NCBI GenBank assembly: GCA_019310385.1
Contig: JAFDEK010000014.1
Coordinates: forward strand, 1-64,000
Direction of reading: 5' to 3'
Length of the DNA stretch: 64,000 nucleotides
DNA from: Deltaproteobacteria bacterium
GTDB lineage: Bacteria > Myxococcota_A > UBA9160 > UBA4427
Both the position numbers and the translations under genes were made by a program. This document shows, in pieces, positions 50,065-55,800 of this stretch. The notes below the pieces were generated by a model that had not been told where the DNA came from, searched no databases, and saw only the letters and a list, made by a program, of their open reading frames with translations. The number at the start of each line of letters is the position of its first letter. Within the stretch, counting starts at the first letter, position 1.

Positions 50065-51411
50065 TCAGCCTTCTGCGAAAGTCCGCAGGATGAACCAGTA
50101 GAGGCCCAGGCCGCAGATTGCCGCGGAGGCGATCTGCGAGGTCAGTCGATACCAGCGTCCTTCCGAAAGCCGCCTCGCTAGCTGCAGCAAGGGCCAGGCC
50201 AGCGCCACTACGGCGAGCTGGCCCACCTCGACCCCGAGGTTGAAGCCGAAGAGGGCCGGCGCGAGGCGGGACGTGGGCAGCGACATCTCGGCGAGCACGC
50301 CCGCAAAGCCGAAGCCGTGCACGAGCCCGAAAGCGAAGGCCAGGGAGGTGCGAACCCGCGTGGGGCGGAGCGTGCGCGCGAGCAGCTGGAAGTGACACAG
50401 CGAGAAAAGGGAGAGACCCAAGAGGGTCGCGACAGAGAGAACGCCATGACCGGCGAAGGCCAGCGCGCAGAGCAGGAGCAGGCCAAGGAGCGAAGCCGCG
50501 ACGATGCGCGGGTCGCGTCCCGAGAGCAGCCAGCCGTTCTCCGCGGCGATCAGGGCCACGGAGAAGCCGATCACGGCTTCCACCGCCGCGGCCTCCGGAT
50601 GCAGGAGCCCGAGCACGGCGAGGCCCAGGGTGATGCTGTGGGCGATGGTGAAGCCCGTCACCAGGCCTGCGACCTGGCCCAGGCTTCCGGCAAGGAGCAG
50701 CAGCGCGAGGACGAAGGCCAGGTGGTCGTAGCCCGTGAGAATGTGCTCGATGCCGAGGAGGAGATACTGGTAGAAGGAGCTACCGGTGGGCTCCACGACG
50801 CCAGGGCTGCCATCGATCGCCTCGCCGCCCCACCCGCCCAGCTTCCAGACTGGGGCGGCTTCGGTGAGCACGCGTTCCAGTCCGGTCGCTTCGCCACCGG
50901 CTCCGTCGTCACCAGCTCTGTCTTCACCGGCCCCGTCGCCACTGGCCCTGTCGCCCGAGGACACCCGTGCAAAGTGGAGATGGGACGGGGCGACGTCCAG
51001 GAAGATGCGGCTCTCGATGGCGCGCTCGCCGCTGGCCCGGCAATCCAGCCGCCATTGAAAGGCGATCCAACCCTCCGCTGCGGGACGGGGCGTTGGCGGT
51101 GCAGCCGGAGAGCAGAGCTCGTCGTCGACTCGCAGCCCAAGCCGGCTCAGCAGATAGCGAGCGATGTTGCTGGACGGTCCAGGCGCCGAAGGGCGTGCGG
51201 CCTCGGCGCCGGTCAGTGGAAGCCGCGTGAAGTCGAGGCGCGAGACCCGCACGCTCACTTCCGCGCCCGCTTCGTCGAACTCCCAGCTCGAGTAGGAGAT
51301 GCTGCGGCCGTGGGCATGGCTCGGCGCGGGTGCCGCGGCAATGTGCGCGAGGCCGAGCGCGAGCGCGATCATCGCGGACGCGCAGGAGGGTGCCAACCTC
51401 ACCCCTCTCAT
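50065..51411 (-). CDS. HupE/UreJ-like membrane protein
   Basis: The 448 aa protein has a signal peptide, a periplasmic domain of about 170 residues and seven to eight helices. The second half matches the HupE/UreJ_2 family: 'LLLGIEHILTGYDHLAFVLALLLLA', 'VTGFTIAHSITLGLAVLGLL', 'FGLVHGFGFAGVLAEMSLP' and 'FNLGVEVGQLAVVALAW'. The His/Asp pattern (H-x4-GYDH, A-H-S, V-H-G-F) could bind a transition metal. Relatives are proposed nickel/cobalt transporters, and some are tied to hydrogenase or urease, neither of which is in this window. Residues 155-180 ('SSGDRASGDGAGEDRAGDDGAGGEATG') are a degenerate 15/18-bp DNA repeat in the linker before the helices. Confidence 0.85.
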   Translation of the reverse strand: MRGVRLAPSCASAMIALALGLAHIAAAPAPSHAHGRSISYSSWEFDEAGAEVSVRVSRLDFTRLPLTGAEAARPSAPGPSSNIARYLLSRLGLRVDDELCSPAAPPTPRPAAEGWIAFQWRLDCRASGERAIESRIFLDVAPSHLHFARVSSGDRASGDGAGEDRAGDDGAGGEATGLERVLTEAAPVWKLGGWGGEAIDGSPGVVEPTGSSFYQYLLLGIEHILTGYDHLAFVLALLLLAGSLGQVAGLVTGFTIAHSITLGLAVLGLLHPEAAAVEAVIGFSVALIAAENGWLLSGRDPRIVAASLLGLLLLCALAFAGHGVLSVATLLGLSLFSLCHFQLLARTLRPTRVRTSLAFAFGLVHGFGFAGVLAEMSLPTSRLAPALFGFNLGVEVGQLAVVALAWPLLQLARRLSEGRWYRLTSQIASAAICGLGLYWFILRTFAEG

Positions 51412-51566: not shown

Positions 51567-51689
51567 AAAACCCATGCTGCGGAGCCAGTTCGAGGTGAGA
51601 TTTCAGGAGTTGAGAGCGACTTTTCGATAGTTGGGGAAGACAGACTTGCGCGATCTCGAATCTGGGCTATATTTGTAAGATCGTCACCG

Positions 51690-51717
51690 AAAAAGCCCGC
51701 CAACCCGGCGGGCTTTT
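51690..51717 (-). terminator. intrinsic terminator
   Basis: 'AAAAGCCCGCC' (51691-51701) and 'GGCGGGCTTTT' (51707-51717) form an 11-bp stem with a 5-base loop and an A/T run on each side; on the minus strand the run is five T's. It is seven bases after the stop of the minus-strand MORN-like remnant and would terminate transcription from that direction. Confidence 0.9.
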
Positions 51718-51723
51718 CTCGTT

Positions 51724-52133: not shown

Positions 52134-52160
52134 TTGAAATCGAAATCCATTTTCGATAAA
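52134..52160 (+). promoter_or_regulatory. putative sigma-70-type promoter of the porin/flavin operon
   Basis: 'TTGAAA' (52134-52139) and 'GATAAA' (52155-52160) are plausible -35 and -10 boxes with a slightly short 15-base spacer, in an AT-rich patch unlike its surroundings. The first palindrome covers the spacer and -10; the second would cover the start site, an arrangement suited to repression. Confidence 0.5.
52139..52157. promoter_or_regulatory. Fur-like 19-bp palindrome, first site
   Basis: 'ATCGAAATCCATTTTCGAT' has 7-bp inverted arms. Its length and A/T-rich half sites are in line with a Fur box ('GATAATGATAATCATTATC'), though it matches the consensus less well than the second site. Confidence 0.5.
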
Positions 52161-52173
52161 ACCTGAAGTTCTT

Positions 52174-52192
52174 AATGAAAATGGTTTTCATT
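52174..52192. promoter_or_regulatory. Fur box, second site
   Basis: 'AATGAAAATGGTTTTCATT' is a perfect 19-bp palindrome (8-bp arms, 3-bp centre) closely resembling the Fur consensus, with 'AATGA' and 'TCATT' outer arms. Its centre is 35 bases from that of the first site and about 85 bases before the porin start. Confidence 0.75.
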
Positions 52193-52267
52193 TCCTGTCG
52201 AGTTCCATCGCGCTCCTCGCCCTGACCGGTCGCGGAGCGTATCGAGCACGATTCCGAGGAGACGAGC

Positions 52268-53581
52268 ATGATGACGAGAAGCACCGCCCGAATTGGGCTG
52301 GTGGTCTTTGCGGTAATGGCCCTGGCGGGGCCAACCGTGGCGAGGGGCGGCGACGCCACGAACGACGCGAAGATCGAGAAGCTCGAGGAGCAGCTCGCGG
52401 TGCTCGCCGAGGAGATCGACAAGCTCCGCAAAGAGGAGGCGGTCCCGGAGAAGAAGCCGCTCGTGAGTGAGTGGGGCCTCGGTCCGGCGGCCTCGAAGGT
52501 CTACCAGAAGGAGCGCGGCGTCTCCATCGGCGGCTACGGCGAGATCGCCTTCCGGGGCTTCCTCGACGACTCGGCGCCCGACGGCAAGAACAACGTCTTC
52601 GACGCCGTGCGCGCCGTCCTCTACGCCGGCTACAAGTTCAACGACAACTGGGTCGTCAACGGCGAGTTCGAGTTCGAGCACGCCGGCACCGGCGGCGGCG
52701 GCTCGGTCTCGGTCGAATTCCTGACCCTCGACTTCCTCTGGAAGGACCCGCTCAACCTGCGCGGGGGCCTGCTGCTGATCCCCATGGGCTTCATCAACGA
52801 AATGCACGAGCCCACGACCTTCTACAGTGTGCAGCGACCGGAGACGGAGCGGCGCATCATCCCCAGCACCTGGCGCGAGAACGGCGTGGGCATCTTCGGC
52901 AGGTGGGGCGATCGGGTGACCTACCGCGCCTACGCGGTCAACGGCCTGGACGGAACGGGCTTCGACGAGACCGGCCTGCGCGGCGGCCGCCAGAAGGGGA
53001 GCGAGGCCCTCGCCAACGATTGGGCGGGCGTCGGGCGAATCGATATCGACGTCTGGCGCGGCATCGAGTTCGGCGGCTCGGTCTACGCGGGGAACTCGGG
53101 GCAGAGTCAGTCGTTGAACGGCCTCGAGGTGCCCGACCTCTTCACCACGATCTGGGAGGTCCACACCCAGTGGGAGGGCTATGGCGCGAAGATCCGGGCC
53201 CTGTACAGCGAAGCCTACGTGACGGACACCGCCGCGTTCAATGTCATCAAGAACGTCGGCGTCCCCCCGGCCGACCAGGACTTCCTGGCCGAGACCATGA
53301 GGGGTGGCTACGTCGAGGCGGGCTATGACATCATGCCGCTGATGCTCCCGGAGACGCGGATGTCACTGTCGCCCTTCCTTCGCTACGAGTACATCAACAC
53401 CCAGGCCGAGATGGCCGCGGGCTTCGATCCCAACGAGGCGCTGGTGCGGGACATCATCACGGCGGGCTTGAACTACAAGCCCATTCCGCAGGTCGTCGTC
53501 AAGCTCGACTACGAGAACACCATGCCGAAGGGCGAGGACGACATCCACGTGATCCAGTTTGGCCTGGGTTACGTCTTCTAG
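52268..53581 (+). CDS. outer-membrane porin (OprP/OprO-like)
   Basis: The 437 aa protein has a signal peptide ('MMTRSTARIGLVVFAVMALAGPTVARGG'). A coiled-coil 'DAKIEKLEEQLAVLAEEIDKLRKEE' follows, which may trimerise or bind peptidoglycan, then a beta-barrel of alternating aromatic strands ending in the outer-membrane C-terminal Phe ('HVIQFGLGYVF'). 'SIGGYGEIAFRGF...NVFDAVRAVLYAGYKFNDNWVVNGEFEFEHAG' resembles phosphate-selective porin O/P-type barrels. Its start is 76 bases after the second Fur-like site. It begins the operon with an FMN-binding protein (23-base overlap), a membrane protein and ApbE. In an iron-controlled operon it more likely passes an iron-containing or electron-carrying solute than phosphate. 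That last point is inference. Confidence 0.85.
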   Translation: MMTRSTARIGLVVFAVMALAGPTVARGGDATNDAKIEKLEEQLAVLAEEIDKLRKEEAVPEKKPLVSEWGLGPAASKVYQKERGVSIGGYGEIAFRGFLDDSAPDGKNNVFDAVRAVLYAGYKFNDNWVVNGEFEFEHAGTGGGGSVSVEFLTLDFLWKDPLNLRGGLLLIPMGFINEMHEPTTFYSVQRPETERRIIPSTWRENGVGIFGRWGDRVTYRAYAVNGLDGTGFDETGLRGGRQKGSEALANDWAGVGRIDIDVWRGIEFGGSVYAGNSGQSQSLNGLEVPDLFTTIWEVHTQWEGYGAKIRALYSEAYVTDTAAFNVIKNVGVPPADQDFLAETMRGGYVEAGYDIMPLMLPETRMSLSPFLRYEYINTQAEMAAGFDPNEALVRDIITAGLNYKPIPQVVVKLDYENTMPKGEDDIHVIQFGLGYVF

Positions 53582-54209
53582 CAGGAAGGCGGTCGCGGTC
53601 GCGGCCGTCGGTCTCGCGCTCGGCGGGCTCCTCCCGGAGCCCGCCAGCGCGAAGGTCTTCCTGAGCCAGGAGGAGGCGCTGACCCTCGCCTTCCCCGAGG
53701 CCGACCGCAGCGAGAAGCAAACCCACGTCCTGTCGCCGGAGCAGGTCGAGCGGATCCAACGCCGGGCGCGAGCCAGGCTCGAGTCCAAGCTCGTTAGCGT
53801 CCACAGCGGCTGGCGGGGCGAAGTGCTCCTCGGCTACGCCTTCATCGACGTACACCGGGTGCGTACGCAGGCGGAGGCGCTGCTCGTGGTTCTGGGACCG
53901 GCGGGCGAGCTGCGCTCGGTGCGGGTTCTCGCCTTTCACGAGCCCCTCGATTACCTTCCTTCCGATCGCTGGTATGGGCAGTTCGAGGGGAAGCCGTCCG
54001 ACGATGCCTTCCGCGTCGGTCACGATGTCCACGGCATCATGGGGGCCACGCTCTCGGCCCGCGCCACGGCGGACGCGGTGCGACGCTCGCTGGCGTTCTA
54101 CGAGGTGCTGGTTCGAGGCGCCCAAGAGCCTTCGGTACACGACCAGCCGACGATCAGGAAGACAGACCAGGAAGACCGAGCAGAAAGAGAGACCAGGAAG
54201 AGCGAGTAG
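53559..54209 (+). CDS. exported FMN-binding (flavinylated) protein
   Basis: A TTG at 53559, inside the porin gene's end, gives 216 aa. The first 31 residues are a signal peptide ('AVAVAAVGLALGGLLPEPASA'). The FMN_bind domain ends with 'DVHGIMGATLSARATADAVRRSL', matching the flavinylation motif D-x-x-(S/T)-G-A-(S/T): T164 would carry FMN through a phosphodiester bond, as in NqrC and RnfG. The enzyme for that, ApbE, is the last gene of the operon. The protein is expected in the periplasm, free or membrane-attached. Its Arg/Glu/Lys-rich tail is repetitive ('RKTDQEDRAERETRKSE'), from duplicated 'AGACCAGGAAGA'-type DNA, and looks like another terminal expansion. Confidence 0.82.
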   Translation: MAWVTSSSRKAVAVAAVGLALGGLLPEPASAKVFLSQEEALTLAFPEADRSEKQTHVLSPEQVERIQRRARARLESKLVSVHSGWRGEVLLGYAFIDVHRVRTQAEALLVVLGPAGELRSVRVLAFHEPLDYLPSDRWYGQFEGKPSDDAFRVGHDVHGIMGATLSARATADAVRRSLAFYEVLVRGAQEPSVHDQPTIRKTDQEDRAERETRKSE

Positions 54210-54230
54210 GAAGTCCGGGGGGTCTATCGC

Positions 54231-54767
54231 GTGCGCTTCGTCATCACCGGGGAGTGGGCGCGGAACCGTCTGCTCCAGACCATCGTGGTCCTCTACAGCG
54301 CCTACGTGGGCCTGCTCTGGATCACCAACGCGCTTCTCTACTTCCAGAAGATGAGCCTCGCTCCGGCCTCGGTGGTGGCCTACTACCTGGGCAATGAAGA
54401 GCAGTTCCTGCTCCCCCGCACCTACCAGGGGCTGCTCGAGGTCGCTCACTTCCATCTCTTCGCCATCGGGATGCTGCTGCTCGTCTTGACCCACCTCATG
54501 CTCTTTATTCCGGCCCGCCAGGGCCTCAAGGCCTGGCTCATCGCGCTGCCCTTCGTGTCGGGCATCATCAGCGAATCGGGGGGCTGGCTCGTGCGCTTCG
54601 TCAGCCCCCACTTCGCGCTGGTCAAGATCGGCGGCTTCCTGCTGCTCCAGACCAGCTTGCTCGTTCTCGTGCTCGTCTCGCTCTGGGCCACCTTCACGCC
54701 CGAGCAGGCGGTGAACTACATCGGGCCCCTCGACGACGAGGACGACGAGGATGACGAGCTCGACTGA
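54231..54767 (+). CDS. four-helix membrane protein, putative haem b electron carrier
   Basis: The 178 aa protein starts at GTG 54231. It has four helices (about residues 16-37, 71-94, 100-118 and 127-155). Histidines lie at helix-forming positions: H73 and H75 at the start of helix 2, H88 inside it ('VLTHLMLF') and H127 at the start of helix 4 ('SPHFALVK'). Such spacing (H73/H75 to H88, H127) could ligate haem as in small cytochrome b-like proteins. I do not recognise a named family and cannot exclude another role. The C-terminus is strongly acidic ('DDEDDEDDELD'). It lies between the flavoprotein and ApbE, overlapping apbE by 17 bases, and would link the quinone pool to the periplasmic flavin. 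Confidence 0.6.
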   Translation: MRFVITGEWARNRLLQTIVVLYSAYVGLLWITNALLYFQKMSLAPASVVAYYLGNEEQFLLPRTYQGLLEVAHFHLFAIGMLLLVLTHLMLFIPARQGLKAWLIALPFVSGIISESGGWLVRFVSPHFALVKIGGFLLLQTSLLVLVLVSLWATFTPEQAVNYIGPLDDEDDEDDELD

Positions 54768-55800
54768 TCCGCGGCACCGGGCGCGCGCTCTCGCGCTCCC
54801 CATCGTCGCGCTCATCGCCGCCGCCTGCTCGTCGACAGCGCCGACGGCGCCCTTCTCCCTGGTCAGCGACGGCCGCCCCTTGATGGGGACGGTGCTCGAG
54901 CTGAGCGTCGTCGCCCGGGACGCGGCCGCGGCCCGGGAGTGGATCGCCGACGCATTCGAAGAGGTGGGGCGACTCGAGGCGTTGCTCTCGCGCTTCGATG
55001 CCGAGAGCGACGTGAGTCGGCTGGGCCGGGCCGCGGGCCAGGGGTCGCTATCCGTGGACCCGGCGACCCGCGACCTGCTCGATCGGGCGCTGAAGGGAAG
55101 CGCCCTGACCGGGGGCGCCTTCGATCCCACCGTCGGCCCCCTGATCGAGCTGTGGGAGAGGACGGCGCGGGAGGGTCGCGTGCCTGCGCCCCGGGAGCTG
55201 GAGGCCGCGCGGGAGCGGGTCGGCGCCCAGCTCGTCCGGCTGCCCTCCGAGGCGAGCGCCGAGCTGCGGCGCGCCGGCATGTCCATCGATCTCGGCGGAA
55301 TCGCGAAGGGCTACGCCCTCGACCGGCTCGCCACGTCCCTGCGCGAGGCTGGCGCGAAGGGCGCTCTCTTGAGCTTCGGCCAGAGCAGCGCCTGGGCGCT
55401 CGGGTCGCCGCCCGACGCTCCGCGTTGGAAGCTGCTCCTACGCGCGCCTTCCGGCGGATGGGCGGGCGTGGTCGAGCTGCGCGATCAGGCCATGTCCATG
55501 TCGTCGAGTCTGGGACAGTGGAGCGAGATCGAGGGGCGGCGCTACGGCCACGTGGTGGACCCGCGCAGCGGGCGTCTCCTCGAGCGCGGCATCGAGGCCG
55601 CGGTGGTGGGTCCCGATGCGACCTGGGCCGAGATCCTCAGCACGGCGTTGCTCGTGCTGGCAGAAGGAGACGGACTGGCGCTGATGGAAAGACTCGAAGG
55701 TTGCGAGGCGATGCTCATCGACGCGGAGGGTCGGGTGGCGATGACATCGGGCTGGGAGAGCGCTACCCGCTTCCGCGGCGTAGATCTACCGGCACAGTGA
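54751..55800 (+). CDS. apbE: ApbE-type FAD:protein FMN transferase, lipoprotein (operon copy)
   Basis: The 349 aa lipoprotein (signal peptide to 'LIAAAC', C26) belongs to ApbE. The conserved elements are 'GTVLELSVVARD', 'VDPATRDLLDRAL', 'LTGGAFDPTVGPLIELW', 'MSIDLGGIAKGYALDRLA' and 'GHVVDPRSGRLLE', the Mg2+/FAD-binding region. In place of the usual '...TSG-Y' segment stands 'AMSMSSSLGQWSE', which departs from the family. It transfers FMN from FAD to a Thr/Ser of a periplasmic protein; its obvious client is the FMN-binding protein two genes upstream. It is the last gene of the Fur-boxed operon and ends seven bases from nqrM on the other strand. Confidence 0.93.
   Translation: MTSSTDPRHRARALALPIVALIAAACSSTAPTAPFSLVSDGRPLMGTVLELSVVARDAAAAREWIADAFEEVGRLEALLSRFDAESDVSRLGRAAGQGSLSVDPATRDLLDRALKGSALTGGAFDPTVGPLIELWERTAREGRVPAPRELEAARERVGAQLVRLPSEASAELRRAGMSIDLGGIAKGYALDRLATSLREAGAKGALLSFGQSSAWALGSPPDAPRWKLLLRAPSGGWAGVVELRDQAMSMSSSLGQWSEIEGRRYGHVVDPRSGRLLERGIEAAVVGPDATWAEILSTALLVLAEGDGLALMERLEGCEAMLIDAEGRVAMTSGWESATRFRGVDLPAQ

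Follow-up and report, generated by a model that had tools for sequence, protein, structure and literature searches.

A Fur-boxed operon encoding a porin, an FMN_bind protein, an unnamed four-helix membrane protein and ApbE: a candidate flavin-based route for iron

What is the work of an operon that places a porin, an exported flavoprotein, a four-helix membrane protein and a flavin transferase behind two Fur-type palindromes? The question is raised by a 64,000-nucleotide stretch of DNA from a Deltaproteobacteria bacterium, the whole of which is called the window here. The answer that we judge probable is an assimilatory Fe(III) reductase, flavin-based and released from Fur repression at low iron, that has a porin of its own and would feed Fe(II) to Feo uptake. 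Composition and Fur regulation are read from the sequence, and every redox step is a proposal.

Operon layout, surroundings and Fur boxes

Positions 52268-55800 of the window hold four same-direction genes that overlap or are separated by short gaps. All four genes of the original prediction are present at the coordinates below, as are its two 19-bp Fur-like palindromes. The features are as follows.

50065-51411, minus strand: HupE/UreJ_2-type membrane protein, upstream of the operon and divergent from it
52136-52154, unstranded: distal Fur box GAAATCGAAATCCATTTTC; dFUR core at 52140-52156, 12/16
52177-52195, unstranded: proximal Fur box GAAAATGGTTTTCATTTCC; dFUR core ATGAAAATGGTTTTCAT at 52175-52191, 15/16
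52268-53581, plus strand: porin, 437 aa, outer-membrane, with a coiled-coil-like N-terminus; weak OMP_b-brl, BBP2 and Porin_O_P matches
53559-54209, plus strand: exported FMN_bind protein, 216 aa, TTG start, overlapping the porin gene by 23 nt; RnfG/NqrC fold
54231-54767, plus strand: four-helix inner-membrane protein (memb), 178 aa, GTG start; in no Pfam or NCBIfam family
54751-55800, plus strand: ApbE flavin transferase with a lipoprotein signal (IAAAC), 349 aa, overlapping memb by 17 nt; PF02424
55807-58396, minus strand: NqrM-like small ORF, second ApbE and NqrF, downstream of the operon and convergent with it

The HupE/UreJ_2-type gene stays beside the operon in several relatives (for example, loci L065, L071, L072 and L121). 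In the gap between this gene and the operon, a GC-rich hairpin (AAAAAGCCCGCCAACCCGGCGGGCTTTT, 51688-51722) with flanking A and T runs looks by eye like a terminator, although no clear gene adjoins it; no tRNA and no Rfam family or RNA element was found in the window, the region upstream of the operon included. On the far side, the NqrM-like ORF is assigned on inspection and on its conserved position rather than through a profile. Some genera (for example, loci L071-L073) have lost the operon's own ApbE and have the NQR ApbE as neighbor, which suggests that one ApbE may serve both the operon and NQR. Spread of the cluster by plasmids was considered and rejected, a search of PLSDB having returned no match.

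Support for the palindromes as Fur boxes comes from a pattern search of the 4.93-Mb source genome, in which up to three mismatches were allowed, palindromic sites were counted on both strands and the reversed pattern served as control: 18 matches were found against 1 for the control. Three sites carry a single mismatch, namely the pair in front of the porin gene and another in front of a gene identified through Pfam as feoB; the next, with two mismatches, precedes the genes for a bfd-like ferredoxin and a ferritin (bfd-bacterioferritin). The boxes of the operon thus match those of feoB and bfd-bfr in the same genome. That genome, whose assembly is 88% complete, yielded one Fur-family protein. 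When the two sites are scored against the independently published delta-proteobacterial dFUR consensus WTGAAAATNATTTTCAW (PMC545781; scores in the list above), the proximal score is reached by none of 122 control windows from the same 64 kb; with the Escherichia coli Fur consensus, 0/210 control windows from this stretch reach the score of the proximal box.

Conservation in relatives, which the original prediction had made a test of itself, is evident. Of 77 unique regions upstream of the porin, 59 have a dFUR box of at least 13/16 within 1 kb, compared with 23 of 1409 control windows (1.6%), and tandem boxes occur in 17/77 relatives and 2/1345 control windows. The signal reaches across Myxococcota, Binatia and Methylococcaceae, and at several loci that lack a box inside 300 bp one is found farther upstream. 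For the DUF4198-type and haem-c-type gammaproteobacterial relatives described below, the short flanks searched held no convincing site. Judged by these patterns, the Fur boxes upstream of the operon are real, and its control by iron is well supported.

Conservation of the gene set and the exported components

Relatives of memb number 176 in the species-representative genome set, and matches, distant ones counted, occur in 109 of the 379 genomes of the phylum; carriers of the operon are mostly uncultured bacteria, from Myxococcota to methane-oxidizers. For gene order, 80 named loci were kept, and each denominator comprises the loci whose sequence allows the call. The predicted order recurs: FMN_bind lies directly 5' of memb at 77/77 loci, and the porin gene lies upstream of that pair at 64/68. 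ApbE is adjacent at 55 of 77 loci (51 after memb, 4 upstream), nine more have the ApbE of an adjoining NQR operon next door, and 13, mostly of Methylococcaceae, have none nearby; two Methylococcaceae genomes with such loci were checked and encode ApbE elsewhere. In two Binatia genomes (G381 and G383), no ApbE was found beyond that of the cluster, nor any FMN_bind protein elsewhere that passes the Pfam cut-off, which ties the cluster ApbE to the cluster FMN_bind protein.

The FMN_bind protein of the window, taken alone, scores 16.8 bits, short of the 22 bits set as cut-off in Pfam. PF04205 is matched by 45 of 54 members of its family, and the family profile finds RnfG of the solved Rnf complexes (9eri_G) with E=3e-13; the AF2 model (pLDDT 90.7) is matched by Foldseek to RnfG and NqrC. 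The D-x5-G-A-T motif is present, with GAT at residues 162-164, and among 100 sequences G162 is kept in 98 while the flavinylation residue T164 is threonine in 97 and serine in 3. The exported FMN_bind protein with a flavinylation motif that had been proposed is borne out by profile, fold and motif, and covalent FMN is likely, given the RnfG/NqrC fold and a T or S at position 164 in 100/100. The ApbE lipoprotein scores 208 bits against PF02424 (curated cut-off 25.6) with an N-terminal IAAAC signal.

The porin of the window matches the OMP_b-brl, BBP2 and phosphate-selective porin models weakly; 6 of 42 porin homologues match PF07396 (phosphate-selective porins) at E<0.01, the window porin not among them. 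Residues invariant across the 42 are E133, E135 and E137, E150, H180, R115 and R165. The three glutamates at alternating positions, together with E150 and H180, suggest an acidic strand that would face the pore and hence a cation-friendly channel.

The four-helix membrane protein and its distant relatives

Of the four products, memb is the one without a name. A search of Pfam and NCBIfam placed it in no family, and a Pfam scan of 58 members, including for DUF4405, PepSY and COX1, gave no match. Four helices are seen in the AF2 model (pLDDT 89), and G54, E70, H73, H75, H88 and W119 are invariant in 58 sequences down to 20% identity, so the four-helix protein with conserved histidines is as predicted; all three of the histidines are on TM2. 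By the positive-inside rule, TM2 would run from the periplasm inwards, which would place E70, H73 and H75 towards the outer face of the membrane and H88 towards the inner face; H88 is 15 residues from H73 and 13 from H75.

Several candidate relationships were tried and rejected. The VAHFH of TM2 recalls helix X of the haem-copper oxidases (COX1), for which the hhalign probability is 0.4 and Foldseek gives no oxidase. Membership in DUF4405 (hhalign probability 0.2) is rejected mainly on the negative Pfam scan of the 58 members, because the DUF4405 comparison set was small and mixed; for PepSY_TM_like_2 the hhalign probability is 0.1. A MAPEG-type four-helix fold heads the Foldseek matches, but with E>1 and an rmsd of about 12. 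Against solved structures in the PDB, Foldseek returned no significant relative of the model and no haem-protein fold.

With all three invariant histidines on one helix, a bis-His haem in memb would need an oligomer. FezC is a reported precedent, its haem sites having been modeled as made by homodimerizing (PMC11334425), and our leading guess for the memb cofactor is haem b at a homodimer interface. The interpretation first offered for the locus, an iron-starvation system passing electrons from quinol via haem to a periplasmic flavin, is therefore kept in part. Its iron-starvation operon and its protein with covalent FMN are well supported by Fur boxes, gene order and a flavinylation threonine conserved across phyla; the quinol-to-haem step is weaker, given no solved haem fold, no link to DUF4405, PepSY or COX1, three histidines on one helix and the absence of H88 from the haem-c homologues.

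Those homologues form one of two distant gammaproteobacterial groups, which hhalign joins to memb at 98.7% (haem-c group) and 97.6% (DUF4198 group); both keep the HxH pair, and H88 is absent in both. In the first, a haem-c motif (CxxCH, with weak matches to Pfam cytochrome c models) lies in the stretch that joins TM1 to TM2, which supports a redox role for the memb family. Its members (L179 1447-2193, minus; L183 1084-1848, plus; L186 1444-2184, minus; L191 1273-2277, minus; and similar) are about 240-330 aa long, with a HIHLFG-type TM2 and a membrane part covered by no Pfam family. In the second group, the memb-like gene lies between DUF4198 and an FMN_bind-like protein without the flavinylation threonine. 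This trio of DUF4198, memb-like and exported FMN_bind-like proteins is conserved (L177 786-2903, minus; L178 800-2884, minus; L187 365-2433, plus), and its memb-like protein has an acidic Met/His-rich loop, metal-binding in appearance.

The same residues invite another reading, in which memb would be an inner-membrane Fe(II) permease with E70, H73, H75 and H88 as ligands, completing a route from porin through flavin reductase to permease while the FMN drew its electrons from elsewhere. A Glu/His set on one helix does resemble metal ligands, no haem-protein fold was recovered, and flavinylation clusters often hold Fe(II) transporters such as VIT1, according to PMC8238504. We nonetheless consider the permease unlikely: a FeoB with a Fur box is already encoded in the genome, haem c in memb homologues fits redox, and the operon would keep no dedicated membrane donor to FMN.

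A proposed route for iron, and known systems

Taken instead as an assimilatory Fe(III) reductase, the operon would act in a simple order. At low iron, Fur would leave the promoter, and porin, flavoprotein, memb and ApbE would be made. The porin would admit ferric or chelated iron, and ApbE would attach FMN to Thr164 of the FMN_bind protein in the periplasm. By way of a cofactor bound at its TM2 histidines, memb could then carry electrons from the membrane quinol pool to the FMN, which would reduce periplasmic Fe(III) to Fe(II) for entry via FeoB, itself Fur-boxed in the source genome. Fe(III) reduction is a reasonable inference here, drawn by likeness to Fur-repressed PepSY-DUF2271 clusters. 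Counted against the proposal are the TonB-type uptake present in the genome (two TonB plug domains), the loci without a nearby ApbE (13/77), the absence of H88 from haem-c homologues, and the confinement of the three invariant histidines to one helix.

The operon could also be a Fur-induced, iron-sparing respiratory branch, with flavin in place of iron-rich cytochromes and quinol electrons passing to a different acceptor, periplasmic or external, that the porin lets in. Control by Fur would make sense for a flavin substitute that contains no iron, much as flavodoxin stands in for ferredoxin (argued in PMC8238504), and NQR genes adjoin the operon in the source family. However, an adjacent NQR gene was not found in most other lineages, the operon has no terminal reductase and its dedicated porin fits uptake better, so that such a branch seems distinctly improbable. 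Least probable of all is that the cluster deals with a different metal or with some redox-active chelate (copper, for example), with Fur a link to iron status only: it does occur in methanotrophs, which need copper, and one distant memb relative family has a Met/His-rich loop, but its boxes agree with the ones at feoB and bfd-bfr, only a single Fur-family protein was found, and the window memb has no such loop.

Returning to the Fe(III) reductase, a broader claim may be advanced more tentatively, as a possibility that falls somewhat short of an even chance: memb may found a new transmembrane redox family, without kinship to PepSY or DUF4405, that drives the reduction of covalent flavin in porin-fed, Fur-controlled iron uptake in bacteria ranging from Myxococcota to methanotrophs, and its gammaproteobacterial relatives with haem c may represent the same fold with a flavin or a haem partner. 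Of the genomes that encode ApbE machinery, about half are without a previously characterized flavinylation system (PMC11334425), and many flavinylated proteins are thus without an assigned membrane electron donor. A widely conserved, Fur-controlled operon with an unnamed memb provides one concrete candidate for such a donor, and it offers a way to Fe(III) through a porin, open to testing, in lineages of which few members have been cultured. The Fur-boxed delta-proteobacterial porins listed in 2004 (PMC545781) may also gain a role, if they are orthologous.

Systems of this kind are already known, since flavinylation clusters tied to iron reduction (PepSY, MsrQ and VIT1-linked) appear in PMC8238504. 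Flavinylation-linked iron reduction is thus known in kind, and the composition of porin, FMN_bind protein and unnamed four-helix protein appears to be new. That composition is not among the systems in the excerpted text of that paper, the word "porin" is absent from PMC8238504 and from its 2024 successor PMC11334425, and no paper describing this gene set was found in the main texts of the open-licence papers searched.

The closest likeness is to the PepSY-DUF2271-ApbE clusters (eLife 2021, PMC8238504), which similarly combine a covalent-flavin periplasmic protein, ApbE and a membrane redox protein, with Fur repression reported in some species and iron reduction proposed. In contrast to these, the operon has FMN_bind rather than DUF2271 as its flavoprotein, adds a porin where TonB receptors accompany some PepSY clusters, and has in memb an unrelated membrane protein (see the hhalign comparison above). 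The DUF4405/FezC cytochromes (mSystems 2024, PMC11334425) are, like memb, membrane proteins with conserved histidines, and DUF4405 is found near apbE; memb shares no sequence or profile similarity with them and has four helices with its invariant histidines all on TM2. RnfG and NqrC share the FMN_bind fold and flavinylation threonine of the operon's flavoprotein, whereas the latter has a porin and memb as gene neighbors and lacks pump subunits that belong to it. Finally, the psp porin of Geobacter metallireducens and Desulfuromonas (PMC545781) resembles the operon's porin in being Fur-boxed, with two tandem boxes, and weakly like phosphate-selective porins; the excerpted text of that paper mentions no flavoprotein or membrane partner for it, and the likeness of the two porins is one of description.
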